Assembly (NCBI RefSeq): GCF_000302595.1
Contig: NZ_JH947126.1
Coordinates: 897,223-961,222 of the forward strand
Source of the DNA: Pedobacter arcticus A12
GTDB lineage: Bacteria > Bacteroidota > Bacteroidia > Sphingobacteriales > Sphingobacteriaceae
Reading direction: 5' to 3'
Length of the DNA: 64,000 nt
In this document: positions 1-17,267 of the stretch, piece after piece
Layout: each line of letters opens with the position of its first letter
How positions within the stretch are numbered: the first letter of the stretch is position 1
Program-made: the position numbers and the translations under genes
The notes under the pieces: generated by a model
Database searches by the model: none
Told to the model about the DNA's origin: nothing
What the model saw: only the letters and a program-made list of their open reading frames with translations

Positions 1-217
1 GATTGGATGCAGGTTCGCCCATTCCTTTGGGTTGTTCAGGCAACATGGCGGATATTTCTTTCAGCCTTGCTGGATCCAATGAATATGTTGACTTTATTCT
101 ATATTTATTAATCGGCGCTTTATTTGTCTCTTGTGCAGAAACATTACAAACAGAAAAATAAGCAATGGTTGCTACTCCAATTAATTTAGTTACCACGCGG
201 GTAGTTAATTGCCTCAT
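1..217 (-). CDS. N-terminus of an exported, probably heparinase II/III-like lyase (partial)
   Basis: The start codon (215-217) and 72 codons are visible; the rest lies beyond the left edge. The protein opens with a signal peptide ending near VSAQ, so it is exported. Residues around 57-68 read ISAMLPEQPKGMGEP, closely matching the stretch just before the catalytic toroid of the large heparinase-like protein at 446-4651 (ISAMIPLLPKGMGEP). I infer a second lyase of the same type. It has its own upstream region with the shared two-box promoter element (244-279), so it is probably the first gene of another PUL transcription unit. The family assignment rests on this short match and the context only. 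Confidence 0.6.
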   Translation of the reverse strand, partial: MRQLTTRVVTKLIGVATIAYFSVCNVSAQETNKAPINKYRIKSTYSLDPARLKEISAMLPEQPKGMGEPASN

Positions 218-243: not shown

Positions 244-279
244 CTGAATACACCGGAACTCCTATAATGGGTGAATGCT
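244..279 (-). promoter_or_regulatory. Two-box promoter-like element, copy 1 (candidate ECF sigma promoter)
   Basis: Read on the minus strand: AGCATTCACCC, 15 nt, GTGTATTCAG, then 26 nt to the start codon at 217. The same boxes with the same 15-nt gap occur at 6021-6056 and, slightly diverged, at 16030-16065, each 21-28 nt before a PUL gene. The spacing suits -35 and -10 boxes of an ECF sigma factor. Sigma recognition is inference. Confidence 0.6.
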
Positions 280-355
280 ATTCAGAATAATTTAAACGCA
301 GCTCGGGTCATAAATATCAACTTCTTTATATTTTAAAATATTTATAAGTATGTTT

Positions 356-401
356 CCATGTAGAGTCCACGTTTAAATATAAAAATGTGGACTCTACATG
401 G
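356..401 (-). terminator. Strong hairpin downstream of the large heparinase-like gene
   Basis: Perfect inverted repeat with 15-bp arms (356-370 and 387-401) around a 16-nt AT-rich loop, 44 bp past the stop codon of the gene at 446-4651. It is placed to end that transcript before the next unit begins. Confidence 0.7.
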
Positions 402-445
402 ATAAAAAGCAGACTTTCTATTGCTTCATATGGAAATTGGTACGA

Positions 446-3400
446 TTACTTTATAAATTTAATACTTGTCTGTTTGTTATCTTTTAACAGAGTTGCCACA
501 TACACACCTTTCGGAATAGAGGACGAATCAACATTAAACTGATTATAACCTGTTATTAACGTATAATTCCTATCTAATAAAATTTTACCAGAAACATCTG
601 TTATCCTCAAAGTAGCTGTCCCTTCCGATTGAGAGAATACCATAGCGTTTAAAAGTTCGGTAGCATCCATAAAGACAAAAAAGTCTTTATAATCACTCAT
701 TTTTATAGATAGCACCTCTGATTCTGTATAAATTCCGTCCGCGTCTTTCTGTCTTACCTTATAATAATTGGCCCCATTAAATGGATATTTATCTGTAAAA
801 ATATACTGAGAACTTTCAGAAGTGCCAGCTACCGCATCTATTTCACCAATGGGATGAAAGCCAGCAGAAGCATTCTCTGCTCTTAATATTTCATAAGCAT
901 CATCATGCTTTCCAGAGGTTGCTTCCCATTTTAAACTTACTTTCTCGTCTTCTCTTATGATAGAAAAGTTTTTAAAGAGGAATACCGGTGTATCTTGAGC
1001 AGCATCAAATTGTAAATTACTTAATCTCATTTCAGCAGAAATATTATTACTATTTCCTGTTTTACTGGTTTGACTGGTAAATACAAAACCATCAATTACT
1101 TCATCTGCGGGTAACTCATTGGCCAGAAAATTTGTAGAACCGATGTAGGTCAGCTGTTCATCATTTACCCAAATATGATAACTTCTTGCAGGAACAGCGT
1201 ATTCTGTTGCTCCTTTTATATATTTTTCGGATGCAGAAGAGTTGTTGCAATAAAATTCCATGTTATAGGTACCGCCTTTCTTAAAAAAACCAGAGTTAAT
1301 ATCAATAAAAGTGGTGGTTGCGGAAGCGTTGGCTTTATCTCTGAAAGAAAAAGTATATACTGCGGAGGCCATCAACCACCTAAAAGCAGCAAATATCTCT
1401 GGACGGCTGGCGGTTCCAGAACCAGTAATACCACTTGTACCGTTGATCTGGTTCGCAGCAAGCGTTGTACCTGCTGTTTTGCCGATTGCGAATTGCCAGT
1501 TTGCATCTGTAGTAGTACTATCATTAAATGTGAGTTTATAGCTTATTTTTGCTATCGCCGTAGCTACATCAATATCATACATCGCTAACTTGGCAACTTT
1601 CCCGCTATTAGAAGAAGCAAAACGTATTGCCGACCATTCGTTTGTTCCGGTAAGCCACCATTTACCCTTTCCTGCACCATCGGTGATTCCACCTAATCTC
1701 ACACTTCCAGATTCCGGATAAGGCATAAAACCCTTTACACCACCAAAAGTTGTTGTATTTACTATAGTTCCCTGTGTAAATGGTGCACCGCCTAATATCC
1801 CATCACCTGAATTTGTTCCCGAGTTATAATTCCATTGTGTAGTTGGCCGTAACCAATTTCCAGGGATGCCAGCAATGAAACCTGGCTTGCGAAATGTTAG
1901 TGTAATTTCCCCTGCAAGAATTGGTATGTTTAAAGCAATACCTAAACGTGTATATGGCAATCCTCCTTCTTCAGAGATTACTTCCGGAGTAATGGTAAAA
2001 GCACCCGGGACAGCAATGTAGACATAGATTTTCTCTTTCGTTCCTTGTAATTCTATACAGTTTGGAGCAATTAACTGCCAGACCGCTCTTGTGATTAATG
2101 CAGTTTCAAAAGTTTGGGCAGAGGTAAATTCAAAGTTATCTTTTACAGAAACGAAACCAGTATCGGTACGGTTATATGTAAAAGTTCTTTCCAACTTTAC
2201 CAATTGTGGCACCATGTAAGCCGATTTAATATCCATCACTAATTTATCTTCTGCAGTGGCAAAAACTGTATCTAACACTACTGCTTTGGCAAATGCTGAT
2301 GTGGTTTGCAGTTTCCCGGCAACAACAGGAACCGGATGCCCGTATGAATTGATAGTTTTATAGGTATATCGCTCGGAGTTAAAAGTTTTAGCAGTATAAG
2401 GGATTGCGCCCGGATCGCCAATCATCATTTCAGAACCGGACACCACACTAAAAGACCCTACATCATTATGGTTATGCTCCTCATCATTGTTTCCCCCTTT
2501 AAAAACCGCAGCCAGGTTTAAAGTTGTGTTTGCTGCTGGTCTTGAGGTTAACACACCTGCCACATTAAAATAAGAACGAATTCCTATCTGAGAAGATAAA
2601 GCTACCGTGTCCGGAATTAATGATGCAGAATTTGGAAATCCCCACATGATGTCCACAAGCTGAGTACTCGTATTTCCTGTAAAAGTATAGCTATCATATC
2701 TCTTCAAACCCATTCCTAAATTCTTATTTACATAATATAGTAAAGAAGAACTCGGCCCGGTGCCTATAGTACAATCGGCTATTGTGGGGTAAACGTTATT
2801 GATTATTTCACTATTTGGCGCATACTCTGCAATTTTCCTGATCTTTGGACTGTCGAATAAATCAACGTGACCAGAGGTTGCCTGCAAAAGCTGTTCTCTT
2901 AAAATGATATAGCGCCCAAAGCCATAATTATAGTAAGAAAGACCTTCTGTGCAATACCCGTCATTTAAAAATCCAGCAACGCCGTTGTTGGAATAGCGTT
3001 CGCCAATTGCTACGTACGCTGCCCGCTCTATAGGTGCAGGTATAACTGCTAAAGCGGCGCTTACTACTCCAGATATACATACCGGATTATGATTACCTGC
3101 ACTTTTAAGATCACCAAATTCGCCATACGCATTAGCTGTATTTATAGCACTCATCGTAGGATTAAAAATCCTGGTATACAGCGCATTTTTTATCTTCTGA
3201 CGCATTAAAGTATCCAGTTTATCATCTAAAAGATAATAAGTCTGTCCTAAAGTTTGTGCGTAATCCGCCGCACATAATGCAATTGTATATCGTGTACCAT
3301 TAAAGTTATGCTTTGAGCGGTCTTCGCTGGGGAAATTCCATGACTTTTGACCAATAATATCATTGATCGCTTGGTTAATGGCCGGTATATAGGTACCATC

Positions 3401-4651
3401 ATTATAAAAACACTCGGCAAACACAAGTGCCGCTAAAACATAGCGTCTTTTAGCCATGATGGTTTTGGCGGTTTGCGAATCACCTTCTGTCCAATAAGCC
3501 AAATAAATGGAATCTGTAATAGCCGGCAAGGGTTGCGTCAGCGCAAGATTCGCTTCGTTTATCAGTGTCTGAAATTTTCCAGAGGCTAGCAAAGCATTCC
3601 ATGTTGTCCTTTCGTGATAAGGCTCTCCCATTCCTTTGGGAAGCAAAGGAATCATTGCGGAAATTACACTTACTCTAGCAGAATCTAAAACTACTATGGG
3701 TAAAATAGAATCTGCTGGAGTTACTTCTTCTTCGTCAAACCCTAAAGGACTTTCTACATGATTGATAGAAAGATTACCCAATAACAGTTCTGATGAACCG
3801 GCCGGTGTACTGGTAGCGCCTTGGAAAGCAATCCCGTCTAATGTCTGATTCTCTCCAAGCTGCATTCCCGGAAAATCATGCGAAACAGCATCACTCAACC
3901 TTATTCCATTTGCCCAAATATGATAATAATGAGCTGGTATAGAATAAGTTACTGAATCTCTTATATAATCCTGAACGATGGAAGAATTATTATAATAAAA
4001 CTCCATATCATAGATACTGCCTTTACTAAAGGTTATTCCAGTAATTGGCACCTCAATCACTACAGTGGCATCATTACTGGTCTTTAGCGTATAAGTAAAA
4101 TTTAAATTTGTTCCGGCAGTAAGTAAATTCCAACGTACCGTTGAAAAAATTGTAGGGAAACTGGTTACAGATGTAGCAGCAGGCAAGCCTGCTGTATTTC
4201 TGATATGAGTAGTGCCTTTTCCGATAGCCAGCCTCCAATCCAGCGCTGTTGCTGAATTAACATTAAACTCCATTTTACAGAAAAAACTGGCTACGGAAGT
4301 CGCGTTTTCGATATTATAGGCAGAGAGTTTAGAGACTTTACCTGCACTGGAGGAGACATATCTTAATTTTGGAGCAGACGCAGTACCCAATAAATACCAT
4401 TTGCCTGTACCGCTGCCAACGTTTACCAAGCTTACACTTCCTGATGGAGGATAAGGCATAAATCCCCGTACAGATGGACTGGTTGTGGTGTTTATGGCAT
4501 CGGTGGTATATCCGGAATCTCCTAAAAGTCCTGTACCCGTATTAGTTCCTAAATCGTATGTCCAATTATTGCTTGCTTTTGTCCAAATACCCTGACCATA
4601 TAAAAAACTAAAAGAAAGCCAAAAACTTGCAAAAAGTAGAATTCTTTTCAT
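446..4651 (-). CDS. Giant T9SS-secreted heparinase II/III-like polysaccharide lyase
   Basis: 1401 aa. A signal peptide (about 1-20) is followed by a beta-sandwich-like module (about 22-305), an alpha-toroid region (about 315-640) and a heparinase II/III-like C-terminal domain (about 690-925) with the motif DEEHNHNDVGSFSV near residue 722; the histidines and asparagine there fit the family. A second copy of the first module follows at about 929-1217 (both contain GFMPYP and SGSV), then an Fn3-like stretch (about 1225-1320) and a C-terminal sorting domain ending GVYVATLLKDNKQTSIKFIK, typical of T9SS type A signals. It should cleave an acidic polysaccharide by beta-elimination outside the cell. 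It lies 57 bp behind the pyruvyl transferase-like gene, probably in one transcript. Exact PL family and substrate are not determinable from sequence alone. Confidence 0.8.
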   Translation of the reverse strand: MKRILLFASFWLSFSFLYGQGIWTKASNNWTYDLGTNTGTGLLGDSGYTTDAINTTTSPSVRGFMPYPPSGSVSLVNVGSGTGKWYLLGTASAPKLRYVSSSAGKVSKLSAYNIENATSVASFFCKMEFNVNSATALDWRLAIGKGTTHIRNTAGLPAATSVTSFPTIFSTVRWNLLTAGTNLNFTYTLKTSNDATVVIEVPITGITFSKGSIYDMEFYYNNSSIVQDYIRDSVTYSIPAHYYHIWANGIRLSDAVSHDFPGMQLGENQTLDGIAFQGATSTPAGSSELLLGNLSINHVESPLGFDEEEVTPADSILPIVVLDSARVSVISAMIPLLPKGMGEPYHERTTWNALLASGKFQTLINEANLALTQPLPAITDSIYLAYWTEGDSQTAKTIMAKRRYVLAALVFAECFYNDGTYIPAINQAINDIIGQKSWNFPSEDRSKHNFNGTRYTIALCAADYAQTLGQTYYLLDDKLDTLMRQKIKNALYTRIFNPTMSAINTANAYGEFGDLKSAGNHNPVCISGVVSAALAVIPAPIERAAYVAIGERYSNNGVAGFLNDGYCTEGLSYYNYGFGRYIILREQLLQATSGHVDLFDSPKIRKIAEYAPNSEIINNVYPTIADCTIGTGPSSSLLYYVNKNLGMGLKRYDSYTFTGNTSTQLVDIMWGFPNSASLIPDTVALSSQIGIRSYFNVAGVLTSRPAANTTLNLAAVFKGGNNDEEHNHNDVGSFSVVSGSEMMIGDPGAIPYTAKTFNSERYTYKTINSYGHPVPVVAGKLQTTSAFAKAVVLDTVFATAEDKLVMDIKSAYMVPQLVKLERTFTYNRTDTGFVSVKDNFEFTSAQTFETALITRAVWQLIAPNCIELQGTKEKIYVYIAVPGAFTITPEVISEEGGLPYTRLGIALNIPILAGEITLTFRKPGFIAGIPGNWLRPTTQWNYNSGTNSGDGILGGAPFTQGTIVNTTTFGGVKGFMPYPESGSVRLGGITDGAGKGKWWLTGTNEWSAIRFASSNSGKVAKLAMYDIDVATAIAKISYKLTFNDSTTTDANWQFAIGKTAGTTLAANQINGTSGITGSGTASRPEIFAAFRWLMASAVYTFSFRDKANASATTTFIDINSGFFKKGGTYNMEFYCNNSSASEKYIKGATEYAVPARSYHIWVNDEQLTYIGSTNFLANELPADEVIDGFVFTSQTSKTGNSNNISAEMRLSNLQFDAAQDTPVFLFKNFSIIREDEKVSLKWEATSGKHDDAYEILRAENASAGFHPIGEIDAVAGTSESSQYIFTDKYPFNGANYYKVRQKDADGIYTESEVLSIKMSDYKDFFVFMDATELLNAMVFSQSEGTATLRITDVSGKILLDRNYTLITGYNQFNVDSSSIPKGVYVATLLKDNKQTSIKFIK

Positions 4652-4708
4652 AAAAAAATTTAATTTAAAAAAGCAGAGTAGCGCTCCTTATCAAAAGCGT
4701 ACCAATAT

Positions 4709-5992
4709 TTAGCTGTTCATGAGTACATTTTCAATTGTACTCATGGTGTTTTTCTGTACTTGCTGTAAATAAGCTCTGGTTTTATCAAGCTTTGCTAAAG
4801 CCTGGGGGTAATTATGGTGTATCTCCAAAACTTTATTTATGATTTGGGAGGCGGGAGTTTCGTCAATTTCGAAATACCAATCGGCTAATCCAATATCTCT
4901 CCACATTTGGCCTTTACGGGTATCTGTTGGGTGCTTGATATGAATAGCCGGAACTCTTTCTGCAACAGCAATAATGGTAGAGTGAATTTCTAAGCTAACT
5001 ACTGCTCTGGATCTAGCGTAAACTGATGCAGCTTCATCCGTCAACCAAAAACTATCTCGCCAAACTACATTCTTCTTAATTTCATCAGACAGAGGGTCTA
5101 CAATAGTTTCTTTTGCTAACTCTACCTGAAAAGCTACTTCGGGGCAAGCAAGTACCTTCAATCCTGTTTCTTCTACCCAAGAAGTTATAATTGCTCTTAG
5201 CTTAATAGCATCTGCTTCTTTATATTTTAAAGAAACTTCATACTTCCATTTCTCCTCTTCAGAAGGAACATAACCTTTCATTTTCCAGTTAGGGGTATAC
5301 CGTAACCGGGGAATTACACAAATAAATTTGCCTTTTTCAAGTCCAACCGACTCGAGATATTCTTCTGCTTTTTTATCATTATGGAGATTTATCCCAAAGG
5401 TAGAATCGGGACCAAATTCCTGTACGGGGCATTTAAGATTCAAACTTTTCACATATTTTAGAGACTCTGTATCTCTGAAATAGAAAAAAGAGGCATGGTT
5501 AAATAAGTCCTGTAGTTCTGGACTTAGCTCTTGAACGGTATCTCCATAAACACCAAAAGGTTTTTTAGTAGTCTTCCACCACGATCTCAAATCGGTACTT
5601 TTCTCGTAATACCATCCAGAACCGTAAATCATAAGGTGACACTCATCAAAAGCTTTTTGCAGCTCTATAGTATCAGGTTTTCCTTTACCCAAATCAAAAC
5701 GACCATTAACAATCTTTAATTCAGGGTATGTTTTTTTAATTAATTCCTCAACACCATTATCTATTAGAACCGGCCAAAGAACGATTTCTACATCAGGAAT
5801 ATATTTGATAAACAGTTCCATAATACCAAAAACATGGGCTATATCTCCGATATTTATAGTTTGCCAACAATTTCTTAAAAGAATTTTCTTTTTCCCCTTC
5901 TCAAGGGCAAGTACATGAATAGCAGGCATCAACATAGATAAAGTTGCTAAATAAGATGCTTGTCTGATAAAGCTGCGTCGTTTTTCCAGCAT
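4709..5992 (-). CDS. Exported polysaccharide pyruvyl transferase-family protein
   Basis: 427 aa. The N-terminus MLEKRRSFIRQ followed by a hydrophobic stretch looks like a twin-arginine (Tat) signal, and cleavage would fall near VLA at 27-29. After it, ILLRNCWQTINIGDIAH (about 36-52) resembles the start of the polysaccharide pyruvyl transferase fold (PF04230), with further family-like stretches such as GDTVQELSPEL and the C-terminal SLEIHSTIIAVAERVPAIHI. Known members transfer ketal pyruvate to sugars, normally in the cytoplasm. An exported member inside a degradation locus is unusual, so its role here is unknown; it could act on pyruvylated or otherwise decorated glycan. It leads a short transcription unit with the shared promoter element 28 bp upstream. 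Confidence 0.75.
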   Translation of the reverse strand: MLEKRRSFIRQASYLATLSMLMPAIHVLALEKGKKKILLRNCWQTINIGDIAHVFGIMELFIKYIPDVEIVLWPVLIDNGVEELIKKTYPELKIVNGRFDLGKGKPDTIELQKAFDECHLMIYGSGWYYEKSTDLRSWWKTTKKPFGVYGDTVQELSPELQDLFNHASFFYFRDTESLKYVKSLNLKCPVQEFGPDSTFGINLHNDKKAEEYLESVGLEKGKFICVIPRLRYTPNWKMKGYVPSEEEKWKYEVSLKYKEADAIKLRAIITSWVEETGLKVLACPEVAFQVELAKETIVDPLSDEIKKNVVWRDSFWLTDEAASVYARSRAVVSLEIHSTIIAVAERVPAIHIKHPTDTRKGQMWRDIGLADWYFEIDETPASQIINKVLEIHHNYPQALAKLDKTRAYLQQVQKNTMSTIENVLMNS

Positions 5993-6020
5993 AATTATTT
6001 GGTCTTATAAATGGCTTATA

Positions 6021-6056
6021 CTGAATACACTATTCTGGAATAAGAGGGTGAATGCT
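6021..6056 (-). promoter_or_regulatory. Two-box promoter-like element, copy 2
   Basis: Identical boxes to copy 1 (AGCATTCACCC and GTGTATTCAG on the minus strand), with the same 15-nt gap but an unrelated spacer sequence. It lies 28 nt before the pyruvyl transferase-like gene. Conservation of boxes and spacing but not of the spacer is what a sigma-factor site would show. Confidence 0.65.
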
Positions 6057-6111
6057 CAAACAACTTAATTTAAAATTGATAAAGCACCAGACATACTGAA
6101 TAAAATATTTC

Positions 6112-8496
6112 CTATTTTTTCTTTGAAAACTCTACCGCTACAGTTCTTCCCTGCAAGTTTTTCATATCTACAGATAATTTTATTACAGGGCTAATTTGTT
6201 TGATGGTAATATGAGGATCTTTCTTAAGTACTTCTAAAGCGTCACAGTGAATTTCTAACTCCGTATAACTTTCATTTTTCATCGTCGGGTCTGAAAGAGA
6301 AATAATGATACGATTTGATTCTTCTAACACCATTACTGCGGTCTTTTTATTAACTGTTAAATAAGGTTGTCCACCTACAATAGCTATAGTTTGAATACTA
6401 TCTGTCCAAAAATTGGCGGCTAATAAATTAAGTTTATTGTCTCTTACAGCCTGTACACTTGAAGTATTTTCCAAAATTTCTATTTCGGGATTGCGGTTAT
6501 ATTGTTTTACCCTAGTCTGAGAAAAACCGGGTAACAACGCATAGGAGTACGTATTTTCTGCGCTGTTAGTATCTTCTACAGGGCTACCATGGTCTTTCCA
6601 GAGGGTTACATAATTATTATTTATTTCCTTATCAGAATTTACAGGCCTTAAATCTTTCCATGAACCTGTTTGAACCTTTCTTTCGATATTTAATTCTGCT
6701 CCACCCGGGAAATAATAACCAACATCCGAAGCTGGAACATTTCCTTCTAAATGTGCCCATTGAATACCGCTTCGTTTATGTACATTAAAAAGTTGTGGCA
6801 TCACCTCCCCATTTATCGTAAAAATATTCGTGTTCTTCTTACTTAATCTACGCTGTTCGATAGTAGTCACTACATTTTGTTTATCCTTATAAGTGATGCC
6901 TGCACCAAGTGCAACAATTTCGTTATCAAACATAAACCATGATTTTTTAGCAGATAAAGAACTTTCAAAAGGAGCTAGATGCATTCCTGTAACTCCGTAT
7001 TTATCTTGCATAGAGGCACCACCAACCCAATCTATACCATTTGTCTTATTCTGAACTGCTTTACTGTTATCTACTATTGTTGTGCCTGGTAAACGCTGAT
7101 AATTTATAGTAGGCCAAAAATGATCTTCAAATTGTTTTTGATCTGCGGTATATAAGTAAGTCATCCCATCTGAAGTGTGCCATCCTTTAAGGTTTTCTTC
7201 ATTGATGGATTCAAAATTATAAATACGTGATGAATGCATGCTTACCGCAAAAGCATAATTTAATGTGTGCTGTACTGCCCTATCCATATTAGCAAACTGT
7301 TTATAAAGAAGCTGATTGCTTAAAATAGGGATACTTTTATCTTCAACAATGGCTTTTACCATCCTAATCATCGTGATGGAAGATAATATAGAATAGTAAT
7401 TTGAAACCGAGTTATCTTCCATCACGAAAGTCTTCACTAACGACTTTATTTTTGCTGTATGCTGAGGAGGGGCTGTATTTGCTAATAATACCATTGCTTC
7501 TATAACAGAACGGCCTTTCCTATGTTCAGAAACATTACTCCTGGAAATTTCACGTCCCATACTCATACTCATCATTCCTCCTTTATAAATCAGAGGAACA
7601 AATGAGTCGTAAACCCAGTGGTAAACGTTTTCACTCGATGGAACAGCTTTTATAGATGGTAGGAGGTACATAAGTTCGGCCAGCGAGCCTAATAAAGCTG
7701 CGCCATACCCTCCTGCATAAGGATGTTTGTTATGCTGAATAAAAGATCCGTCGTTATAAAAACCGTCGCCCGTTTTAACATATTCAAAAACCTCTTTTAT
7801 TGCGTCACGAGCATATTTTATTTTTGTGGTGTTTCCGGAAAGAATGCCATTCAATATGATAATTCTGCTTACCCACAATAAATTAGCACCTGTATAATTG
7901 CTTACACTTGGTGTACTGTAACTTATGGTCTTAAGATAATTCTCTCGTTGCTTAACACTCAGCTTGTCATACATCATTACCATGATGTTGCATAACCTAT
8001 CAGGACTACCTATACGATAATCCCACCAATTATTATGTCCTCCAGATTTAGGGATGGCCATACGCTCGTTAAATTTATTTGCATATAGCCAGTCCAGTGC
8101 ATTAATAATGTCATTTCTTAAGTTTTCATCTTGATATACCGCTGTGCCTTGCATGGTAAAACCAGTAGTCATTGAAAGTAGCCTGGTATAACAAGTTGTG
8201 ATATCTGCAGATGTTTCAAATTTCAAATCTTTCCAAAGGGTTTTTCTGTTCAAAGTATCACTTACAAATCCTTTTTTCCATGTATTTAAAGCATTTTGAC
8301 TTATCAATTCTATTTTAGATTTTATTAAGGGGTCTTTTAAAGTGTAAGCTCCACCTGTTATAAAATCATAGCATCGTTTTCTTAAAGAGTCTGTATTAAT
8401 ATCATCATTAAAGCTTAACTGTTGTGCAAAGCTATTGCTTGCTGTCAGCATAAAAACAACTGCCAGAATTAGCATTTTTATAATTTTCATCTTCAA
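6112..8496 (-). CDS. Polysaccharide lyase family 8 (chondroitin AC / hyaluronan / xanthan lyase type)
   Basis: 794 aa with a signal peptide ending at SFAQ (about 24-25). The catalytic residues of PL8 are visible with family spacing: Asn in GGHNNWWDY (155/156), H255 and Y264 in SFIQHNKHPYAGGYG (nine apart, as in chondroitinase AC), and R315/R319 in GREISR. The later beta-sandwich part carries LWKDHGSPVEDT, also typical. It cleaves uronic acid linkages by beta-elimination and leaves a 4,5-unsaturated uronate, the substrate of the GH88 enzyme encoded 10 bp upstream in the same operon. The polymer cannot be fixed from sequence; chondroitin/hyaluronan and xanthan lyases share this fold. Confidence 0.92.
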   Translation of the reverse strand: MKMKIIKMLILAVVFMLTASNSFAQQLSFNDDINTDSLRKRCYDFITGGAYTLKDPLIKSKIELISQNALNTWKKGFVSDTLNRKTLWKDLKFETSADITTCYTRLLSMTTGFTMQGTAVYQDENLRNDIINALDWLYANKFNERMAIPKSGGHNNWWDYRIGSPDRLCNIMVMMYDKLSVKQRENYLKTISYSTPSVSNYTGANLLWVSRIIILNGILSGNTTKIKYARDAIKEVFEYVKTGDGFYNDGSFIQHNKHPYAGGYGAALLGSLAELMYLLPSIKAVPSSENVYHWVYDSFVPLIYKGGMMSMSMGREISRSNVSEHRKGRSVIEAMVLLANTAPPQHTAKIKSLVKTFVMEDNSVSNYYSILSSITMIRMVKAIVEDKSIPILSNQLLYKQFANMDRAVQHTLNYAFAVSMHSSRIYNFESINEENLKGWHTSDGMTYLYTADQKQFEDHFWPTINYQRLPGTTIVDNSKAVQNKTNGIDWVGGASMQDKYGVTGMHLAPFESSLSAKKSWFMFDNEIVALGAGITYKDKQNVVTTIEQRRLSKKNTNIFTINGEVMPQLFNVHKRSGIQWAHLEGNVPASDVGYYFPGGAELNIERKVQTGSWKDLRPVNSDKEINNNYVTLWKDHGSPVEDTNSAENTYSYALLPGFSQTRVKQYNRNPEIEILENTSSVQAVRDNKLNLLAANFWTDSIQTIAIVGGQPYLTVNKKTAVMVLEESNRIIISLSDPTMKNESYTELEIHCDALEVLKKDPHITIKQISPVIKLSVDMKNLQGRTVAVEFSKKK

Positions 8497-8506
8497 GATT
8501 TACTAA

Positions 8507-9700
8507 TTACTTTATTAGATTTTTATACCTTAATAATGCCTCTGTATAATAATAATCGGCATAGGTTAAAGGAACATCTATTTCAGATTTATGCGGCATG
8601 CTTCCTACGCTATGTTTTAATAAAAAACCGCCATTTGTACCTACTACCGCTTTATATTCTTTAGTTGACAGTGTTTTTATAATTTGCCTAGCTACTCCCA
8701 AATATTTCTTAGAGACATTTCCTTTGTTATACCCTGCCAGTTCTATTAATGCTGATGCTATTAAAGATCCAGCAGAAGCATCTCTTAGTGCATTTGGAAC
8801 CTCTGGAGCATTAAAATCCCAATAAGGAATTTTATCTGCTGGCAAATTGGGATGATTTAAAATAAAGTTGGCTATGTTATTTGCGAAATCAAGGTACTTT
8901 TTATCTTTTGTCTCACGATACATGGTAGTATAACCATATAATGCCCAACCCTGCCCTCTTGCCCATGAAGACTCATCTGCAACACCCTGATGAGTGCGTT
9001 TAACATTGGTTTCTCCTGTCTCTGGATTGTAATCTACCAAATGGTACGAGCTATAATCTGGGCGAAAATGATTTTTCATGGTTACATCAGCATGCGAAAC
9101 GGCAATTTTATAATAAGAAGAATCTCCAGTTATTTTTGTTGCATAAAACAATAATTCAAGATTCATCATATTATCAATAATCACTAAAAATTCTGATGAC
9201 TTTTTTGAATCCCACGAGCGAATACAGCCTACTCTTGGGTCGAAACGATCACTTAAAGATTTTGCGCTATTTATTAAAATTTGTTTATACTTTTCGTTAG
9301 CCTTTAAACGATTGGCATGGCCAAAGCTACAATACATCATAAAACCAAGATCGTGTGTGGTTTTATTATATTGTTCTTTTTCCAGTAGCTTAAGTCTTCT
9401 TATAGCTTCATTATATAAAACAGTATCTTTACTATTTTCATATAAATAAAGCAATGTCCCTGGGTAAAAACCGCTACACCACCAGGCGGACCCGCTAGTT
9501 ACTAGTTTACCTTTTTCATCAAGTGTTCTAGGTAACTCATTTAGCGGAATCTGAGTTTTAAAAAATTTATATTGAGCATCCGCATCTTTAAAATCTTCAT
9601 TTATTAGATTTAATAATCCTTTATTTGATGAATTATCTTCTTGAGCGTTGCTAGAGTTTACTGCTAATAAAGCAATAAAAAACAAATAGTACCTGATCAT
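8507..9700 (-). CDS. GH88 unsaturated glucuronyl hydrolase
   Basis: 397 aa, signal peptide about 1-20 (ending NAQ). It removes the unsaturated uronic acid that lyases leave on oligosaccharide ends, by hydration of the double bond. Two aspartates fit the known catalytic pair: D117 in HDLGFMMYCSFG and D176 in IIDNMMNLELL. Other GH88 signatures are SAWWCSGFYPG (71-81) and ADESSWARGQGWALYGY. The signal peptide suggests periplasmic action on oligosaccharides imported by SusC/SusD. It lies between the DUF5017 lipoprotein (40 bp) and PL8 (10 bp) genes, consistent with one operon. Confidence 0.93.
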   Translation of the reverse strand: MIRYYLFFIALLAVNSSNAQEDNSSNKGLLNLINEDFKDADAQYKFFKTQIPLNELPRTLDEKGKLVTSGSAWWCSGFYPGTLLYLYENSKDTVLYNEAIRRLKLLEKEQYNKTTHDLGFMMYCSFGHANRLKANEKYKQILINSAKSLSDRFDPRVGCIRSWDSKKSSEFLVIIDNMMNLELLFYATKITGDSSYYKIAVSHADVTMKNHFRPDYSSYHLVDYNPETGETNVKRTHQGVADESSWARGQGWALYGYTTMYRETKDKKYLDFANNIANFILNHPNLPADKIPYWDFNAPEVPNALRDASAGSLIASALIELAGYNKGNVSKKYLGVARQIIKTLSTKEYKAVVGTNGGFLLKHSVGSMPHKSEIDVPLTYADYYYTEALLRYKNLIK

Positions 9701-9740
9701 ATTATTATAATCTGTGTTTTCTTTTTTTTTAATAATATTA

Positions 9741-10679
9741 CTAATTAACCAAAATGGTTATTTCTTTAACGGTTTCTTTTAGATTTTTAGAATTTGCATT
9801 TGCAGCTACAAAGCTTACATTGTAAGTCCCCGGTGTTTCAAATGCATACTGGAAATCATTTACCGGCGAAGCCGTATCTTTAATTGTAAGACCTGTATCT
9901 GGAGCTATTCTATTGATATAAAGTGGTTTTGTAACCACCCAATCTTCGGTTGCTACCCAACCAGAGCCACGTCCAGTAATGGTAAGTTCGGCAGGTGCAA
10001 TAACCCAGTTAAGACTAGGATTAGTAATACTGGTGGCAACCCAACCTGCTGTTCCAATATTTGCAAGGTCAAAAATCCTCGAAGGAGTAGTGTTATTTAT
10101 ATTGAAACTTTTAATTACCCATGTCCCCTGCCCGGCAGATGCCGCTACATTATATCTGAATGCTATAAAAATGGGTTTATTACTCTCTGTTGATGAAACA
10201 TACTGGTTTAAATCTACTATACCAGAAGGCACAACATTAGCACCAGTAGACAAATTTATATTCGCTGTTATATCTGTCCATGTAGCGGACTTTAATGCTA
10301 CGGCAGAGTTAACTCCGGTGAAATCAGTTGAAACCCAAACTGTAAATCCGTTTGCTTGAGTAGTTTTTACTGCATTAGTAGTAGAAAACTCCAAAGTTGT
10401 TTTCCCGTCTTCTATGCTTGCTCTTTTACGGTATTTAAATTCCTTATTAGGTTCTCCTGAATAAAATGTAATAAGGTTTGGGTGTCCAGAAAATTTAAAA
10501 TTGATACTATCGCCTACATTTACTGTAGTTGCAGATGCCTCTATAGCAAAAGAAGGCTCACTTACTTCTGTATCTCTACATGCACAAATCATAGAGATAG
10601 CAACAAATAGTATGAATATAAATGACTTACGTTGTAAAATCATAATTAATGCTTTTGAAATAAAACTAACTTTTTTCAT
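9741..10679 (-). CDS. DUF5017-type surface lipoprotein, putative glycan-binding
   Basis: 312 aa. A hydrophobic N-terminus runs into MICAC, so C34 is a likely lipidated cysteine. The rest is beta-rich and carries the DUF5017-like stretch NFKFSGHPNLITFYSGE. The family is found next to SusD genes, where it is thought to take the surface glycan-binding slot, and the position here (third gene, 28 bp behind susD) agrees. Two starts are possible: the one given, or the Met at 10643, which would give a more usual lipoprotein signal length. Binding specificity is unknown. Confidence 0.72.
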   Translation of the reverse strand: MKKVSFISKALIMILQRKSFIFILFVAISMICACRDTEVSEPSFAIEASATTVNVGDSINFKFSGHPNLITFYSGEPNKEFKYRKRASIEDGKTTLEFSTTNAVKTTQANGFTVWVSTDFTGVNSAVALKSATWTDITANINLSTGANVVPSGIVDLNQYVSSTESNKPIFIAFRYNVAASAGQGTWVIKSFNINNTTPSRIFDLANIGTAGWVATSITNPSLNWVIAPAELTITGRGSGWVATEDWVVTKPLYINRIAPDTGLTIKDTASPVNDFQYAFETPGTYNVSFVAANANSKNLKETVKEITILVN

Positions 10680-10707
10680 ATATCACTCAAATTTATTTAA
10701 TCTAATA

Positions 10708-12540
10708 CTACCATCCTGGATTTTGGGTTGCCAGTTTATTTAACGATAATTCGCTTGCCGGAATAGGAAAAAGCTGATGTCTCTGATCTATATTATCTCC
10801 GGCCCGGGATAAAAACTTAAAAGAAGCTGGGTATATGGTTGGGCTACTTATTGTTATTTCGTTAGCAACTTCTTTTATACGCGTAATAAAAATACCCCAG
10901 CGTTTAAGATCATGATTACGTAATACTTCATAACATAATTCGCGACTTCGTTCTTCTTTTATAGCCTCTATAAATGTAGTGTATGATGCAGTTTTTGCCG
11001 ATGATAAATTGGGAGAAACAGCGGTTATAGTAGCCGTTGCAAGCGCATTACTTCCTGTTCCGCCAGTTGGAACTGTAATAGTTATAGTGGGTGCTGATGT
11101 ATAAAATTTTCCTCCACTCGTAATATTAATAGCAGAAATTTTATCACCTGTTAAAACTGCTACTGCAGCTGCTCCAGTGCCTCCACCGCCAGATATGGTA
11201 ATTACAGGCATATTACCAGCACTATAGTTAACGCCTTGGTTGGTAACTGTAATTCTGTTTAGGGTATCTCCAAAAAGAAATGTTCCGTAACCTCTTTTTC
11301 TTACTAAATTAACAGTATCAACCATTAAAGGGTCCGCTGCCTTTTTCATTTCTGTAATTGCTTCTGCTCTCATTAAAAGAATATCTGAATAGCGCAACAT
11401 TGGAATATTTGTAGGACCGAAGTTTTTAGATTTTGGAGACGGTTCGTATTCACGACGCCATTTTCCGGGGAAACGATTGTACAATGTGGTTACCGCAGCT
11501 TTTACACTACCATTGTAACGGAAAGGAGATATGCACCAGTCGCGTCTATAATCTGTAGCATCATATAAATTGTAAAGTTTCGCAGTTGCATAAAAAGCAC
11601 CGTAACCATAACCCGGGTTTTGAAGGTCTGTAGAAATAATCTGACCAAAAGTACTCAGCCATGAACCTTCTTGGTATGCACCGGTATTATTGTTGTTCCC
11701 ATACGCTTCTATTTCCCAAATACATTCTTTAATATCATAAATATCAGCTGTATGATTAATAAATATTTGGCGATAATCATTATTTAATGCATGTTCTCCA
11801 CTATTAATCACCTTGCTGGTCCATTTAGCAGCTTCAGCATATCTGCTTTCATCTTTTAGCGGAAATCCTGCCATAGTTAGATTCACACGAGCTAATATAC
11901 CCTGTACAGCTGTTTTAGAAATACGACCACTAAATCCTAATGTTGAAATTTTAGCAACTAATGACTCGGCTGCTGTCATATCTTTTATAATCTGATCATA
12001 AACTGCTCCTACAGATGACCTTGCCATATTTACATTTACAGCTGAGGATTTTGAAGGGATTAATCTAAGCGGTACACCACCCCAGTTATCAACCAAGACA
12101 AAATAATAGTATCCTCTAAGAAATAATGCTTCTCCTCTATATTGTTCTCTTAATATTTCATCCATTTGAGGTTTATCAATATTTGCAAGTAAAGTATTAG
12201 CTCTATTTATACCCAGATAGCATGCATCCCACAAACCAGATACTGCGGCATCAGAAGCGGAATAATTATACACCATCGTTCCAGTTAGTCCGGTTCCGGA
12301 AGTAGCAGATCTTAAGACTTCATCATTTGCATTGGTAAGACTCCCAATAAGATTTAGATGGTACATTGCCTCTGTTCCTAAAGGAGCGTATACTCCTGTA
12401 AGCGCCGATTTTATATGTTCTTCCTTTGTATAATATTCCTCAGGATCTAGAAAATCTTTAGGAGTGGTTTCTAAAATATCTTTGCAGGAACCCATAATAA
12501 AAAGGATTAATACTGCTAATGTTTTACTAATATGTTTCAT
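10708..12540 (-). CDS. SusD/RagB-family outer-membrane glycan-binding lipoprotein with a glycine-rich insertion
   Basis: 610 aa lipoprotein (lipobox IMGSC, C19) with family features from N-terminus (FLDPEEYYTKEEHIKSALTGVY) to C-terminus (EERSRELCYEVLRNHDLKRWG ... LFPIPASELSLN). It caps the SusC transporter, encoded 27 bp upstream, and captures oligosaccharides at the surface. Between about residues 428 and 508 sits an unusual insertion of two repeats of the type GVNYSAGNMPVITISGGGG and GKFYTSAPTITITVPTGG, a pattern I associate with beta-structured adhesive or phage-tail-like modules and not with SusD. It splits the segment joining the RKRGYGTF region to the conserved FIEAIKEERSRE helix. Confidence 0.93.
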   Translation of the reverse strand: MKHISKTLAVLILFIMGSCKDILETTPKDFLDPEEYYTKEEHIKSALTGVYAPLGTEAMYHLNLIGSLTNANDEVLRSATSGTGLTGTMVYNYSASDAAVSGLWDACYLGINRANTLLANIDKPQMDEILREQYRGEALFLRGYYYFVLVDNWGGVPLRLIPSKSSAVNVNMARSSVGAVYDQIIKDMTAAESLVAKISTLGFSGRISKTAVQGILARVNLTMAGFPLKDESRYAEAAKWTSKVINSGEHALNNDYRQIFINHTADIYDIKECIWEIEAYGNNNNTGAYQEGSWLSTFGQIISTDLQNPGYGYGAFYATAKLYNLYDATDYRRDWCISPFRYNGSVKAAVTTLYNRFPGKWRREYEPSPKSKNFGPTNIPMLRYSDILLMRAEAITEMKKAADPLMVDTVNLVRKRGYGTFLFGDTLNRITVTNQGVNYSAGNMPVITISGGGGTGAAAVAVLTGDKISAINITSGGKFYTSAPTITITVPTGGTGSNALATATITAVSPNLSSAKTASYTTFIEAIKEERSRELCYEVLRNHDLKRWGIFITRIKEVANEITISSPTIYPASFKFLSRAGDNIDQRHQLFPIPASELSLNKLATQNPGW

Positions 12541-12567
12541 TTCTTATATATTAAACGACAGACCTAT

Positions 12568-15500
12568 TTATAATGTAACATTTAAGCCAAAAGTAAATGT
12601 TAAGGCTCTTGGAAAAGGAGAATAATCAAATCCTGTTGTTAATGCTGAGTTCTTGGTAGAAACCTCGGGATCTTGACCGGAATAATTTGTCCAGGTATAA
12701 ATATTTTGCGCCGATGAATAAACCCTAAGTGCACTTATTTTAAGAGATTTTGCATACTTAACAGGTAAATTATAACCTAATGACACAGTTTTCAAACGAA
12801 GGTAAGAGCCGTCTTCCACTACACGGGAAGAATAAGCGTAAGGTCCTTGTCCACCTACCCGGAAATTTTTACTTTCCTGATTAGTTTCGCTCCAACGATC
12901 TATATAAGACGCGTATTGATTTTGATGCGATCTTGCCACGCTGGAACCTTCAAAAAAGAGTCTATTAGCATTAAAAACATCATTTCCATAAGACCATTGG
13001 AAGAAAACATTCAGATCGAACTGTTTGTATTCGAAGTTATTACTAAAACCACCAGTATGAATTGGGTAAGGATTCCCAATCATGGTATAATCATCACTAT
13101 TTAAAATACCATCGCCATTTAAATCTTTATATTTCACGTCTCCGGGTCGGATACTAGCCCTGGTACCTCCATTTGTTGCCACTTCGTCTTTAAGTGAGGG
13201 TGTTCCATTAGGAAGGTAGTTAAAATCAGATTTTTGATAAACACCCTCCCAAACGAAGCCATAGAAACGACCGATTGGATCTCCTTTTTTGGCAATGTAT
13301 AAGGGCATTTTAAAACCACTATCCCATCCAACTGAGGTCGTTATTGCCTCCTGATTTTCTGTAAGATCAATAACTTTATTTTTATTAAATGATATATTAA
13401 AATTAGAACTCCATTTAAAATCTTTCTTTTGAATATTAACAGTTGTTAAACTAAATTCCCATCCACGATTTTGTACTTCGCCAATATTTTTAAAGGTACT
13501 TAATATCCCTACGCTACCCGGAAGACCTGAATTCAATAATAAATCGTAAGTTTTTTTAATATAAAAATCTGTAGTAAACTGGATCCTTCCTTTAAAAAGA
13601 TCCAAATCCAATCCGGCATCAAACTGTCCTGTACTCTCCCATTTCAAATCATTATTAGATAAAGCCGTAAGAACGCTACCTGGGGTTACTCCATTATTAA
13701 AAGCATAAGCCGCATTTGTGGGCATGGCCTGTATAGCTCGGAACGCATAATCTGTAACCCTGTTATTGCCGGTTACTCCATATCCTGCTCTTAGTTTTGC
13801 ATCGTAAACAAATGGTAAGCTTTTCATAAAATCTTCACCACTAAAACGCCATGCTAGTGACCCTGAAGGGAAATAACTCCATTGGTTACCTAGAGCAAAA
13901 CGGGAAGAACCATCAGTACGGAAACTGGCAGTAGCATAATATTTAGATTTATAGTTATACATTGCTCTTCCTAAAAAAGATGCCTGCTTACTTTCTGTTA
14001 GAGATGATTGAAGAGCGCTAAGTACTCCCTCGTCTAATCCATAAACACCCAGTTCCTCATTAGGCACACTAAATGCTGTTGCTCCAAATATGTTCCCACT
14101 TCTTTTTTGATAGGTAAAACCTCCTACTAAATTTAAGCGATGCACTTTATTAAAAACTTTTGAATAGGTTAAAGTATTCTCATTTAAAAAATTATCTGTT
14201 TGCACAGTTGAAATTGAGCCATAGGGACCTCCTTTAGAGCTTGCACTAAATAAACTGCCTTGATATGTATTTGAATTATAAAATACATCTCTACGGCTGG
14301 CGGATTTGTTTACTCCACCAGTGATTCGGAGTTTTAAGTTTTTAGTGATCATATACTCTGCAAAGAGATTAGCAAAAAAGGTATTTGTCACCAATTTATT
14401 CGATGTATTTATAGCAGTTTTCTTAGGATTTGTACGGTAATCACTAGTTTCCTCTATACTTGGATCAATTAATTCTTCCAATAAATCCTCGTCGCTTACA
14501 TTACCAGATACTGGCCTATAAGCCCATATACTAGACATGATACTTAATGAACTGGTGTTTCCGAAACTGCTACTGGCTAACACACCATAACTATCTGTTC
14601 CGCTATAATTTAAGTTTACCCCTACTTTCAATTTGTTATTGATAGCCTGATCCAAAACCACTCTTCCTTGGTAACGATTAAAACCAGTATTCAGAATAAT
14701 ACCATCTTGGTTAAGTATGGATCCTGAAATAGAATATTTTGTTTTGCTTGTTCCACCGTTAATACTTATATAATTATTTTGCATAGGGGCCGACTTAAAA
14801 ACTTCATCCTGCCAATTTATACCAGGCGAAAGTTTATATCTATCATCATCAACTACAGGACCATAGATACTAATAGCACCTGCACTATTCACCTCTCGCT
14901 GTAATTTCACAAAGTCATAAGCCTCCATCAACTTTATTTCCTTAATTACTTTTTGCACACCATAGTAGCCATTATAGTTAATTACTGGCTCACCAACTTT
15001 CCCTCTTTTAGTAGTAATTATGATTACACCATTGGCCCCTCTTGCTCCATAAATTGCCGTTGCCGAAGCGTCTTTCAAAATTTCTATAGACTCAATATCC
15101 GCAGGGTTTAAAGTATTGTTGTCAACATCCTCTAAAGGGAAACCATCTATTACATATAAAGGAGAGTTGTCTTGGGTAATAGAGTTATTTCCTCTAATAA
15201 CGATACTACTTGCTGAACCGGGCTGACCATCTGGAGAGCTCACTTCTACCCCGGCAACTCGACCAGCAAGAGCTTCTTCAAAAGACCTTACCGGAGCTTT
15301 CTCTAAGTCTTTCATAACCACTGTTCCTACAGCACCTGTTAAATCTCTTTTGGTTGTAGTTCCATATCCGATAACCACGATTTCATCCAATCCGGTTAAT
15401 TTCTCTTTAAGAACAACATTGATGTTTTTTAGGTCATTCACTGCAATTTCCTGTGTTTCAAATCCCATATAGGTAAACTCTAAATTTGCATCCTGGCCAG

Positions 15501-16008
15501 ATACAGAAATAGAATAATTGCCTTTGGCATCCGAAACAGCAGTAGAGGTACCGTTTTTCTGCTTTATAATCACTCCGGGTAAAGGAATATTTTTAACATC
15601 TATAATGATTCCTTTTACTATGAAAGAACTTTTACTAGCACTGCCCCCTCCTACAGATACTTTTTTTTCTAATACAATAACTTTGTCTCTTCTAATTTGG
15701 TAACTAATGTTCTTATTTTTAAGCAAATAATTAAGAACCTCATTTAAGGGAGCATTATTAAAATTAACTGATACTTTTTCTTTGTCATTTAAAACCAGAT
15801 TGGTATAGAAAACAATTAATCCTGTTTCTTTTTTAATCTGTTGAAAAGCCTGCTGAAGTGTGATATTTGTTCCTTTTACACTTAGTTTTTGCAAAACTGG
15901 CTTTTCTTGTGAAAAAGCTGCTTCATTAAATAGCATAAAAAAAACAATTCCTATCAGGGTAGAAAAAAAGTAAAAATAGTTACGGCCTGTAAAACTTAAT
16001 TTTGGCAT
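12568..16008 (-). CDS. SusC/RagA-family TonB-dependent transporter with an STN signalling domain
   Basis: 1146 aa. A signal peptide is followed by an STN domain (about 38-112), a carboxypeptidase-regulatory-like beta-sandwich (about 128-210; PLPGVIIKQKNGTSTAVSD), the SusC signature GLDEIVVIGYGTTTKRDLTG, the plug (about 215-335; PLYVIDGFP and ATAIYGARGANGVIIITTK) and a 22-strand barrel ending TFTFGLNVTL. It imports oligosaccharides with energy from TonB. The STN domain is the part that signals to FecR-type anti-sigma factors, and a fecR gene lies immediately upstream, so import is probably coupled to transcription. The start is preceded by the shared promoter element. Confidence 0.95.
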   Translation of the reverse strand: MPKLSFTGRNYFYFFSTLIGIVFFMLFNEAAFSQEKPVLQKLSVKGTNITLQQAFQQIKKETGLIVFYTNLVLNDKEKVSVNFNNAPLNEVLNYLLKNKNISYQIRRDKVIVLEKKVSVGGGSASKSSFIVKGIIIDVKNIPLPGVIIKQKNGTSTAVSDAKGNYSISVSGQDANLEFTYMGFETQEIAVNDLKNINVVLKEKLTGLDEIVVIGYGTTTKRDLTGAVGTVVMKDLEKAPVRSFEEALAGRVAGVEVSSPDGQPGSASSIVIRGNNSITQDNSPLYVIDGFPLEDVDNNTLNPADIESIEILKDASATAIYGARGANGVIIITTKRGKVGEPVINYNGYYGVQKVIKEIKLMEAYDFVKLQREVNSAGAISIYGPVVDDDRYKLSPGINWQDEVFKSAPMQNNYISINGGTSKTKYSISGSILNQDGIILNTGFNRYQGRVVLDQAINNKLKVGVNLNYSGTDSYGVLASSSFGNTSSLSIMSSIWAYRPVSGNVSDEDLLEELIDPSIEETSDYRTNPKKTAINTSNKLVTNTFFANLFAEYMITKNLKLRITGGVNKSASRRDVFYNSNTYQGSLFSASSKGGPYGSISTVQTDNFLNENTLTYSKVFNKVHRLNLVGGFTYQKRSGNIFGATAFSVPNEELGVYGLDEGVLSALQSSLTESKQASFLGRAMYNYKSKYYATASFRTDGSSRFALGNQWSYFPSGSLAWRFSGEDFMKSLPFVYDAKLRAGYGVTGNNRVTDYAFRAIQAMPTNAAYAFNNGVTPGSVLTALSNNDLKWESTGQFDAGLDLDLFKGRIQFTTDFYIKKTYDLLLNSGLPGSVGILSTFKNIGEVQNRGWEFSLTTVNIQKKDFKWSSNFNISFNKNKVIDLTENQEAITTSVGWDSGFKMPLYIAKKGDPIGRFYGFVWEGVYQKSDFNYLPNGTPSLKDEVATNGGTRASIRPGDVKYKDLNGDGILNSDDYTMIGNPYPIHTGGFSNNFEYKQFDLNVFFQWSYGNDVFNANRLFFEGSSVARSHQNQYASYIDRWSETNQESKNFRVGGQGPYAYSSRVVEDGSYLRLKTVSLGYNLPVKYAKSLKISALRVYSSAQNIYTWTNYSGQDPEVSTKNSALTTGFDYSPFPRALTFTFGLNVTL

Positions 16009-16029
16009 ATTTATATCTAATTGGTTAAG

Positions 16030-16065
16030 CTAACTACACAAATAAACACCAATTGGGTGAAGGCT
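16030..16065 (-). promoter_or_regulatory. Two-box promoter-like element, copy 3, before susC
   Basis: Minus strand AGCCTTCACCC, 15 nt, GTGTAGTTAG, then 21 nt to the susC start. It matches copies 1 and 2 in 10 of 11 and 8 of 10 box positions with identical spacing. Its place between fecR and susC is where a FecR-controlled ECF promoter is expected. Confidence 0.6.
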
Positions 16066-16133: not shown

Positions 16134-17267
16134 CTATTTAATATGCAAAATATTTCCAGAATAACTATATTCTATTTTTGCAGATGTTTTCAGGTCTTTT
16201 AAAAAGTCAGATAGTTGCCCCTTTTCTAAAATTCCGGTAATTTGATAATCTTTTAATTCGGGATTGTCGAAAACGACATCTACATCAAACCATCTAGATA
16301 TTACTTCTTTAAGGCTGCCAAGAGGAGTGTTCTGTAAATAATAAATACCATCTATCCAGGAAAGTACGTTTTCCTGATTAAATTCCTGAAGAACGAATCC
16401 TTTATCAGGATTAAACTGCGCTTCATATCCGGATATTAATGAGATTGTTTTACCTTTCTGACTACTCAAATTCACTTTACCCTTCACTAAGGATGTTATA
16501 ATAAGATTTGGATTATAAGTATTTACATTAAAGCATGTACCTACAACGCGTATACTTATTTGCTTTGTACGCACAATAAAAGGATGGGCTGCATTTTTTG
16601 CAACTTCAAAATATGCCTCACCTTCTACAGTTACTTCACGCGTAGTTCCTTTAAACTTAAAAGGAAACGTTAATGTAGATTGCGAATTTAGCCAAACCCG
16701 AGTGCCATCCGACAATACAATTTTATAATCTTTCTTTGCTGGCACAGTGAGCACATTCATGGCCGAGGAAACTTCTCCTTCTGTTCCTTCAAGAGTACTC
16801 TTTTTTGTTAAAATCCTAAATTTGCCAATAGCAATAGTATCACTAGAAGTATCATTTAACAATTCTACAGATGTTCCATTGCTTAACTTTAGGCTTACAG
16901 TTACGGATTTATCATGAGTAACCTGATTTTTATTTCCAGGTATTATATTTTGTTTAGGGTGCCATAATACGGTTAACACGACTACACTAGTTATTGTAGC
17001 TGCGATTAGCCATGGCGTTAAATTTGAAAGACGTTGATTTCGCTTCAACTTAAGTTTTAGTTCCTCAAGTGCAACATCTTCATCTGTCTCTTTCAGAAAA
17101 TCTTTAATATGGCTGTTATTACTTTCTTCCTCTAATGCATGGACAATTTTTCGGGCATTGGCATCTAACTCTAAAAGTTCTTGAAAACCTAATTCATCTT
17201 CTTCTGTAAACATCCCCGAAAGACGTTCTATGTATAATTGACGAATTTTATCGTATTTAGAAATCAT
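16134..17267 (-). CDS. FecR-family anti-sigma factor
   Basis: 377 aa. The cytoplasmic N-terminus (about 1-80) would hold a sigma factor. One membrane helix follows at about 83-102 (LTPWLIAATITSVVVLTVLW), and the periplasmic FecR domain (about 125-290) carries VPAKKDYKIVLSDGTRVWLN, TREVTVEGEAYFEVAKNAAHPFIV and VRVVGTCFNVN-like motifs; a DUF4974-like C-terminus ends YSYSGNILHIK. It would relay SusC/STN occupancy to an ECF sigma factor. Normally the sigma gene lies just upstream; here none is visible, and the upstream DNA is a non-coding stretch and then mobile-element remains. The partner must be elsewhere, or it was lost. Confidence 0.93.
   Translation of the reverse strand: MISKYDKIRQLYIERLSGMFTEEDELGFQELLELDANARKIVHALEEESNNSHIKDFLKETDEDVALEELKLKLKRNQRLSNLTPWLIAATITSVVVLTVLWHPKQNIIPGNKNQVTHDKSVTVSLKLSNGTSVELLNDTSSDTIAIGKFRILTKKSTLEGTEGEVSSAMNVLTVPAKKDYKIVLSDGTRVWLNSQSTLTFPFKFKGTTREVTVEGEAYFEVAKNAAHPFIVRTKQISIRVVGTCFNVNTYNPNLIITSLVKGKVNLSSQKGKTISLISGYEAQFNPDKGFVLQEFNQENVLSWIDGIYYLQNTPLGSLKEVISRWFDVDVVFDNPELKDYQITGILEKGQLSDFLKDLKTSAKIEYSYSGNILHIK

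Follow-up and report, generated by a model that had tools for sequence, protein, structure and literature searches.

What coordinates a polysaccharide utilization locus (PUL) whose genes are spread over several separate units? The question is raised by a 64,000-nt stretch of the Pedobacter arcticus A12 genome (contig NZ_JH947126.1, positions 897,223 to 961,222; hereafter the window), which encodes a SusC/RagA transporter and a FecR-type anti-sigma factor. A preliminary description of this DNA had pointed to three copies of a promoter-like element of the extracytoplasmic function (ECF) type. Our analysis indicates that the element, TTCACCC-N15-GTGTA, is highly likely to be the -35/-10 promoter of a FecI-like ECF sigma factor, P0001, encoded at the far end of the same polysaccharide island. 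Signalling by the SusC and FecR proteins would free P0001, and five units would start.

Motif copies in the window and in the genome

In the window, the motif is found on the minus strand at three places, each upstream of a start codon. The core boxes are as follows:

Site 1: 249..275, minus strand, 31 nt upstream of the ATG (217) of a 647-aa heparinase-like lyase gene
Site 2: 6026..6052, minus strand, 33 nt upstream of the ATG (5992) of a pyruvyl-transferase/1401-aa lyase unit
Site 3: 16035..16061, minus strand, 26 nt upstream of the ATG (16008) of the STN-SusC gene

All three copies were recovered where they had first been described (244-279, 6021-6056 and 16030-16065), and the description was accurate in several further respects. 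The boxes are separated by exactly 15 nt at all three sites, the boxes as first drawn lie 26, 28 and 21 nt before the start codon by their coordinates (21-28 nt had been given), the third site matches the two boxes at 10/11 and 8/10 positions, and the spacers are unrelated, with 1, 4 and 5 of 15 bases identical in the pairwise comparisons. When the 36-nt motif was searched with as many as three mismatches allowed, exactly these three matches were obtained in the window and none in 100 dinucleotide shuffles. The long boxes originally drawn, AGCATTCACCC and GTGTATTCAG, turned out to be over-extended: their TTCACCC and GTGTA parts stand and the remaining length does not, because a fourth site and the sites of relatives share only these two parts.

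The pattern proposed for a genome-wide search, TTCACCC-N18..19-GTGTA, had the wrong spacing (the true value is 15), and N17-20 gave no match in the genome. With N14-16, the genome (4.23 Mb) contained four exact matches, all with N15, and two matches to the reversed control pattern. All four exact copies are on the minus strand within C2:892892-913283, a single stretch of about 20 kb in the polysaccharide island. The fourth, and a weaker fifth site that was found by a matrix scan, are located outside the window:

Site 4 (exact): C2:892892-892918, minus strand, 4.3 kb left of the window, 75 nt upstream of a 318-aa gene
Site 5 (weaker, TTAACCT-N15-GTGTA): C2:878569-878595

Site 5 contains the stop codon of the P0001 gene, and the next gene, 48 nt away, encodes an MFS transporter instead of FecR. 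When one mismatch was allowed at N15, 11 genome matches (the four exact ones included) were obtained versus 18 for the control; as there is no excess at this level, the signal resides in the exact copies. The degenerate form TTMACCY-N15-GTGTA had nine genome matches and one control match. Five of the nine are the island sites, and the other four are within open reading frames (ORFs). All five island sites are outside ORFs, in sense orientation and 26-75 nt upstream of an ATG. Among the ten remaining genome matches (one mismatch or the TTMACCY form), nine lie within ORFs of at least 90 aa; the tenth, at C1:18409 (L052), has one mismatch, lies outside ORFs 70 nt upstream of an ORF without a Pfam match, and was taken as a chance match. 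For any pair of the five sites, at most 8/15 spacer bases and at most 24/60 flanking bases agree. Spacers and flanks are thus unrelated, and the sites are not recent copies of one another. The 160 nt upstream of each of the five start codons contain no exact TAnnTTTG box, the consensus of the main Bacteroidota sigma factor according to passages of PMC7366714.

An orphan FecR and an orphan sigma factor

Which sigma factor could read these sites? The window contains no region-2 sigma match. The whole genome has 27 such matches and 17 FecR_C matches, 13 in FecR-sized and 4 in SusC-sized frames. By coordinates, a sigma match is located no more than about 1.5 kb away from 12 of the 13 FecR genes (in one case, C4:214555, on the opposite strand), and the sole exception is the FecR gene of the window. 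P0001 in turn has no adjoining FecR gene:

FecR-type anti-sigma factor: 16134..17267, minus strand, profile matches to both FecR and FecR_C
P0001, FecI-like ECF sigma factor: C2:878592-879140, same strand and contig as the window FecR, outside the window at the far island end

The P0001 gene lies 34 kb downstream of the window FecR, a departure from the usual sigma-fecR adjacency, and its neighbours encode a mannonate-dehydratase-like protein and the MFS transporter. The protein is intact (182 aa), and its Sigma70_r2 and r4_2 matches are both above cut-off. Its best-scoring NCBIfam family is TIGR02985 (Sig70_bacteroi1), with 120.5 bits, which is below the membership cut-off of 126.4. The next best-scoring sigma factor of this genome is 32% identical to P0001. 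A decayed sigma gene beside the window FecR was also considered; tblastn with P0001 and the sigma factors of relatives gave no match at E 0.01 in the window and the 19 kb to its right. We conclude that P0001 is very probably the sigma factor that reads the motif, and that the five promoters would form an island-wide regulon.

No copy of the ECF motif is present upstream of the window FecR gene (best match, five mismatches), and one TAnnTTTG box occurs 235 nt upstream. For P0001, the 300 nt upstream contain neither TAnnTTTG nor a matrix match, and the gap between the IclR and SDR genes upstream of it is 290 nt by coordinates. It is possible that readthrough from upstream units drives P0001.

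Conservation of the motif beside orthologous genes

P0001 homologues were collected from three overlapping samples of 301 family, 400 order and 395 class genomes. They were found in 30/301 family genomes (E 1e-30, own genome included), 26/400 order genomes (1e-38) and 1/395 class genomes (1e-36); this last one is P. arcticus itself, so that the comparative test rests on one family. The first comparison set consisted of 16 loci from the family sample (L196, which denotes the G052b locus, was excluded from the counts), and FecR directly follows the sigma gene in 16/16.

The 11 best-scoring homologues (43-61% identity), which occur in other genera too, constitute the P0001 clade. The motif follows FecR in all 11, in 8 exactly and in 3 with one mismatch, and the N15 spacing is the same in 11/11 relatives and all five own sites. 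In ten of them the motif stands before susC, while in G298 it is followed first by other genes, with susC further downstream; in G026, the FecR gene and the motif site are separated by an extra ORF. Site 3, at the FecR-SusC junction, has the same position as in most relatives. Two more one-mismatch matches were found elsewhere in the same stretches (G019, G099). For SusC itself, relatives in named genomes were 42% identical at best.

A search of 40 whole genomes revealed the exact motif in 11, with 12 matches in total and 6 for the control pattern. Eight of these 11 genomes are clade members with the match after FecR, and in the remaining three clade members the motif carries one mismatch. G045 has a second exact match, within ORFs. 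Among the other 29 genomes, three have one match each, two within ORFs and one (L181) outside.

Orthology is supported for both partners. The relatives' sigma factors have P0001 as their best match in this genome in 11/11 cases (152-220 bits, against 99 or less for the runner-up), and the relatives' FecR proteins have the window FecR as theirs, also in 11/11 (210-304, against 164 or less). A tree of 42 sigma factors placed the GTGTA group together with P0001 in a single clade (96/92; 94% of 200 bootstrap trees), P0001's label in this test having been set by the analyst, and the 12 FecR-adjacent sigma factors of this genome, which carry a long-branch warning, fall outside the whole P0001-like group (100/99). 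The place of site 5 is also recognizable in relatives: in six of them (G093, G019, G045, G099, G063, G052a), a copy before FecR lies over the sigma stop codon in the same register. The ECF promoter reading given in the preliminary description therefore gains support from a motif kept at the expected place beside orthologous sigma and FecR genes in other genera.

A weight matrix was constructed from 20 sites of relatives (11 after FecR, 9 before), none from this genome. In a scan of 119 kb around the island, the five own sites scored 17.2-23.4, the next match 11.0, and the reversed control 10.1. In the relatives' stretches (26-80 kb each), the matrix did not find a comparable multi-site set, and the five-unit wiring has so far been seen only in this genome.

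Specificity and divergence of the -10 box

None of the genome's 12 other FecR-SusC junctions carries the full motif, the best having three mismatches. By eye, several of these junctions (L035-L047) contain GC-rich hairpin-like sequences, unlike the window junction.

In the relatives, TTCACCC is present after FecR in 11/11 clade members and in 16/18 non-clade loci (L195 and G068 lack it). Of the other arrangements of its letters, the best one occurred in 11/29 of these junctions, and it represents the same site shifted by one base. A further 14 loci had TTCACCC in 9 of the 12 with usable sequence after FecR. Altogether, other genomes have 45 distinct places with a sigma homologue, 32 from the family sample and 13 more from the order sample, from which 29 + 14 junctions were taken in and second copies in G233 and G099 were left out; many of the sequences are near-copies, and the counts do not represent independent events.

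The non-clade loci mostly keep the -35 box without GTGTA, and have -10 stretches such as GCGTCTTA, GCATCTTA, GGTCTTA, GCATCATA and alike. In the proteins, the region-4 helix NS[LIV]KTHLK is constant throughout the sigma homologues, and the stretch between the two region-2 helices, the loop with which ECF sigma factors read the -10 box, varies (LEGDIK-like versus NTSIK-like). One genome, G052, contains two sigma-FecR-SusC sets (L162/L163 and L152/L153) that share TTCACCC and differ in the -10 box, CGTGTA versus ACGGTCATA. We give an even chance to a broader proposal, in which the -35 box of this sigma group is fixed as TTCACCC and the -10 box diverges by subclade (GTGTA versus GTCTTA/GCATC-like), such that paralogues in one cell would be separated by the -10 box alone, and in which a two-promoter circuit (FecR, SusC) would here have grown to five units with sigma and anti-sigma factor at opposite island ends.

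Weighing of alternative explanations

Several results weigh against P0001 as the reader of all five sites. The sigma and FecR genes are not adjacent in this genome, and with 27 region-2 sigma matches a different sigma factor could read the sites. Site 5 has two mismatches to the core, and the copy before FecR is absent in G085 and G076 and poor in G026. An exact TTCACCC without the -10 box is present at one of the 12 other own junctions (L047). The matrix test is not wholly independent, as the training sites were the best core matches per junction and the core came from this genome. With leave-one-out matrices, 615 kb of relatives' sequence yielded nine off-place matches of at least 13; eight scored 13.0-15.9, and one (G099) reached 18.8, above own sites 2 and 5. 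The pre-FecR site of G099 was not recovered in this test. Single matrix matches near 17-19 can accordingly arise by chance in larger sequence sets, and the case is carried by five sites in one island, four of them exact, together with the conserved place.

Could the promoter type be right, but another ECF sigma factor read it, P0001 having decayed or switched partner? The separation of P0001 from FecR and the many other ECF sigma genes of the genome would fit. However, P0001 is intact and falls inside the GTGTA clade, the next own sigma factor is 32% identical, and the full motif is missing from the 12 other FecR-SusC junctions, with three mismatches at best; we regard this explanation as improbable. 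A different view would be that a DNA-binding regulator, for example the IclR-type protein encoded in the island, uses the sites as operators ahead of ordinary promoters. An IclR-family gene is indeed present, and sites 1 and 2 have common flanks beyond the core (AGCA..., ...TTCAG) and, by eye, a TGAATRC direct repeat on the plus strand. Yet the relatives keep only TTCACCC and GTGTA, beside sigma-FecR, the five starts lack an exact TAnnTTTG box within 160 nt upstream, and a transcription factor site would not explain a -10 change that tracks the sigma subclades, which makes operators very improbable. Least credible of all, and to our mind nearly negligible, is that the copies arose by chance or are functionless leftovers of one duplicated promoter stretch. 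Sites 1 and 2 do head units of the same two gene kinds, in opposite order, but the low agreement between any two of the five sites (at most 8/15 spacer and 24/60 flanking bases) and the recurrence of the motif at the corresponding position in other genera both speak against this explanation. A promoter read by P0001 is the explanation that we retain.

Genes of the island and the proposed regulon

The window genes that would belong to the regulon are listed below:

12568..16008, minus strand, SusC/RagA TonB-linked transporter with an N-terminal STN signalling domain (STN 48.8 bits, cut-off 28.4)
10708..12540, minus strand, SusD-like protein
9741..10679, minus strand, DUF5017 protein
8507..9700, minus strand, GH88-like protein (unsaturated uronyl hydrolase family)
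6112..8496, minus strand, PL8 polysaccharide lyase
4709..5992, minus strand, polysaccharide pyruvyl transferase family protein, with site 2 at its head
446..4651, minus strand, 1401-aa heparinase II/III-like lyase with a Por secretion tail (tail below the Pfam and above the NCBIfam cut-off)
2..217, minus strand, 5' end of the 647-aa lyase gene with site 1 at its head (runs off the left edge; whole gene L006:15496-17439)

Profile matches confirmed that the locus encodes the FecR and STN-SusC parts of a signalling switch. The STN-bearing SusC would couple glycan uptake to a signal to the window FecR, by which P0001 would be freed, and P0001 with RNA polymerase would then start five units on the same strand. 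Unit 3 would comprise susC-susD-DUF5017-GH88-PL8, unit 2 the pyruvyl transferase-lyase pair, and unit 1 the 647-aa lyase followed by a second pyruvyl-transferase gene (L006:14194-15465). Unit 4 would begin with the 318-aa gene and continue with more PL8/esterase/GH3 genes, and unit 5 would be the MFS transporter gene, predicted to be driven by site 5. The earlier proposal that the susC operon, the pyruvyl transferase/lyase unit and the left lyase form one regulon is thus favoured, and extended from three to five candidate units. Transcription starts, binding, the signalling step and the extent of each unit are all inferred from sequence.

Pyruvyl transferases are a biosynthetic family and are odd in a catabolic locus. 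Both of them (window 4709-5992 and L006:14194-15465) have export-signal-like N-termini by eye, and each is paired with a heparinase-like lyase. Between the second pyruvyl-transferase gene and site 4, two overlapping ORFs (L006:13421-14106), one with a BNR_4 match, probably represent a broken gene.

Separation of the sigma and FecR genes

In the ancestor, the sigma and FecR genes were probably neighbours, with two promoter copies, one overlapping the sigma stop codon and serving FecR, the second downstream of FecR. Site 5 may be the ancestral FecR promoter, stranded by a rearrangement. Upstream of the window FecR there are genes for a YhcG-type nuclease, a tyrosine integrase in two overlapping pieces, AbiE proteins and DUF5712, so that mobile DNA abuts the point where the sigma gene is missing. 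As a conjecture, the order of FecR and sigma gene is that expected from a circle opened between sigma and FecR, or from a tandem duplication with partial loss.

The integrase gene (window 18945-20263) consists of two overlapping ORFs with a frame break and adjoins the YhcG/DUF1016 nuclease gene at the FecR end of the PUL. The region that follows (window 20705-31463) contains an AbiEii/AbiEi pair, DUF5712 and a GAP1/double-GTPase/GTPase-associated gene set, and resembles a defence-rich mobile region. Further along the window, a Fic protein (38547-39707) and a CHAT-TPR protein (42587-45271) are encoded.

Comparison with known systems

Comparative footprinting has yielded a concrete promoter for one sigma group, a likely sigma factor for an orphan FecR, and a predicted five-unit regulon. 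Since subclades differ naturally in the -10 box, the way in which PUL sigma factors discriminate between promoters can be tested directly. The switch belongs to a known type, the promoter was not found described, and the split layout is unusual.

In E. coli, FecI/FecR/FecA is a cell-surface signalling system with an ECF sigma factor, a FecR anti-sigma factor and an STN-bearing TonB-dependent receptor, and all three components recur here. However, the Fec promoter sequence differs from TTCACCC-N15-GTGTA, the system described here serves SusC/SusD glycan uptake rather than iron, the sigma gene is 34 kb from fecR, and five candidate promoters lie in one island.

ECF control in Bacteroidota is described in passages of PMC3878776, PMC7366714, PMC12596196, PMC9723704 and PMC11501099, and a TTCACCC-type promoter was not found in these passages. 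Literature searches brought up none either, and among the matches listed for TTCACCC and "sigma" no title indicated a Bacteroidota promoter study; a published prediction for this ECF group is still possible. The passages available of these sources allow four comparisons. EcfO of B. fragilis is a Bacteroidota ECF sigma factor reported to have a known recognition motif (PMC7366714), but it acts in oxidative stress and not in glycan use. For B. thetaiotaomicron, a non-canonical motif with TGTT near -10 is linked to SigW-1 and SigH-1, the SigW-1 motif search being non-significant according to the legend (PMC12596196); it is likewise a proposed ECF promoter for a PUL, but its -10 box differs. The SM6 promoters of F. 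psychrophilum have a CGT -10 box and include type IX secretion genes among their targets (PMC9723704). They resemble the present motif as putative Bacteroidota ECF promoters with a GT-containing -10 box, whereas here polysaccharide genes and a defined TTCACCC -35 box are involved. In PUL24 of B. thetaiotaomicron, BT1877/BT1876 are described as a sigma/anti-sigma pair in a SusC/SusD polysaccharide locus (PMC11501099); these passages give no promoter motif, whereas in P. arcticus the pair is split and a motif is defined across genera.

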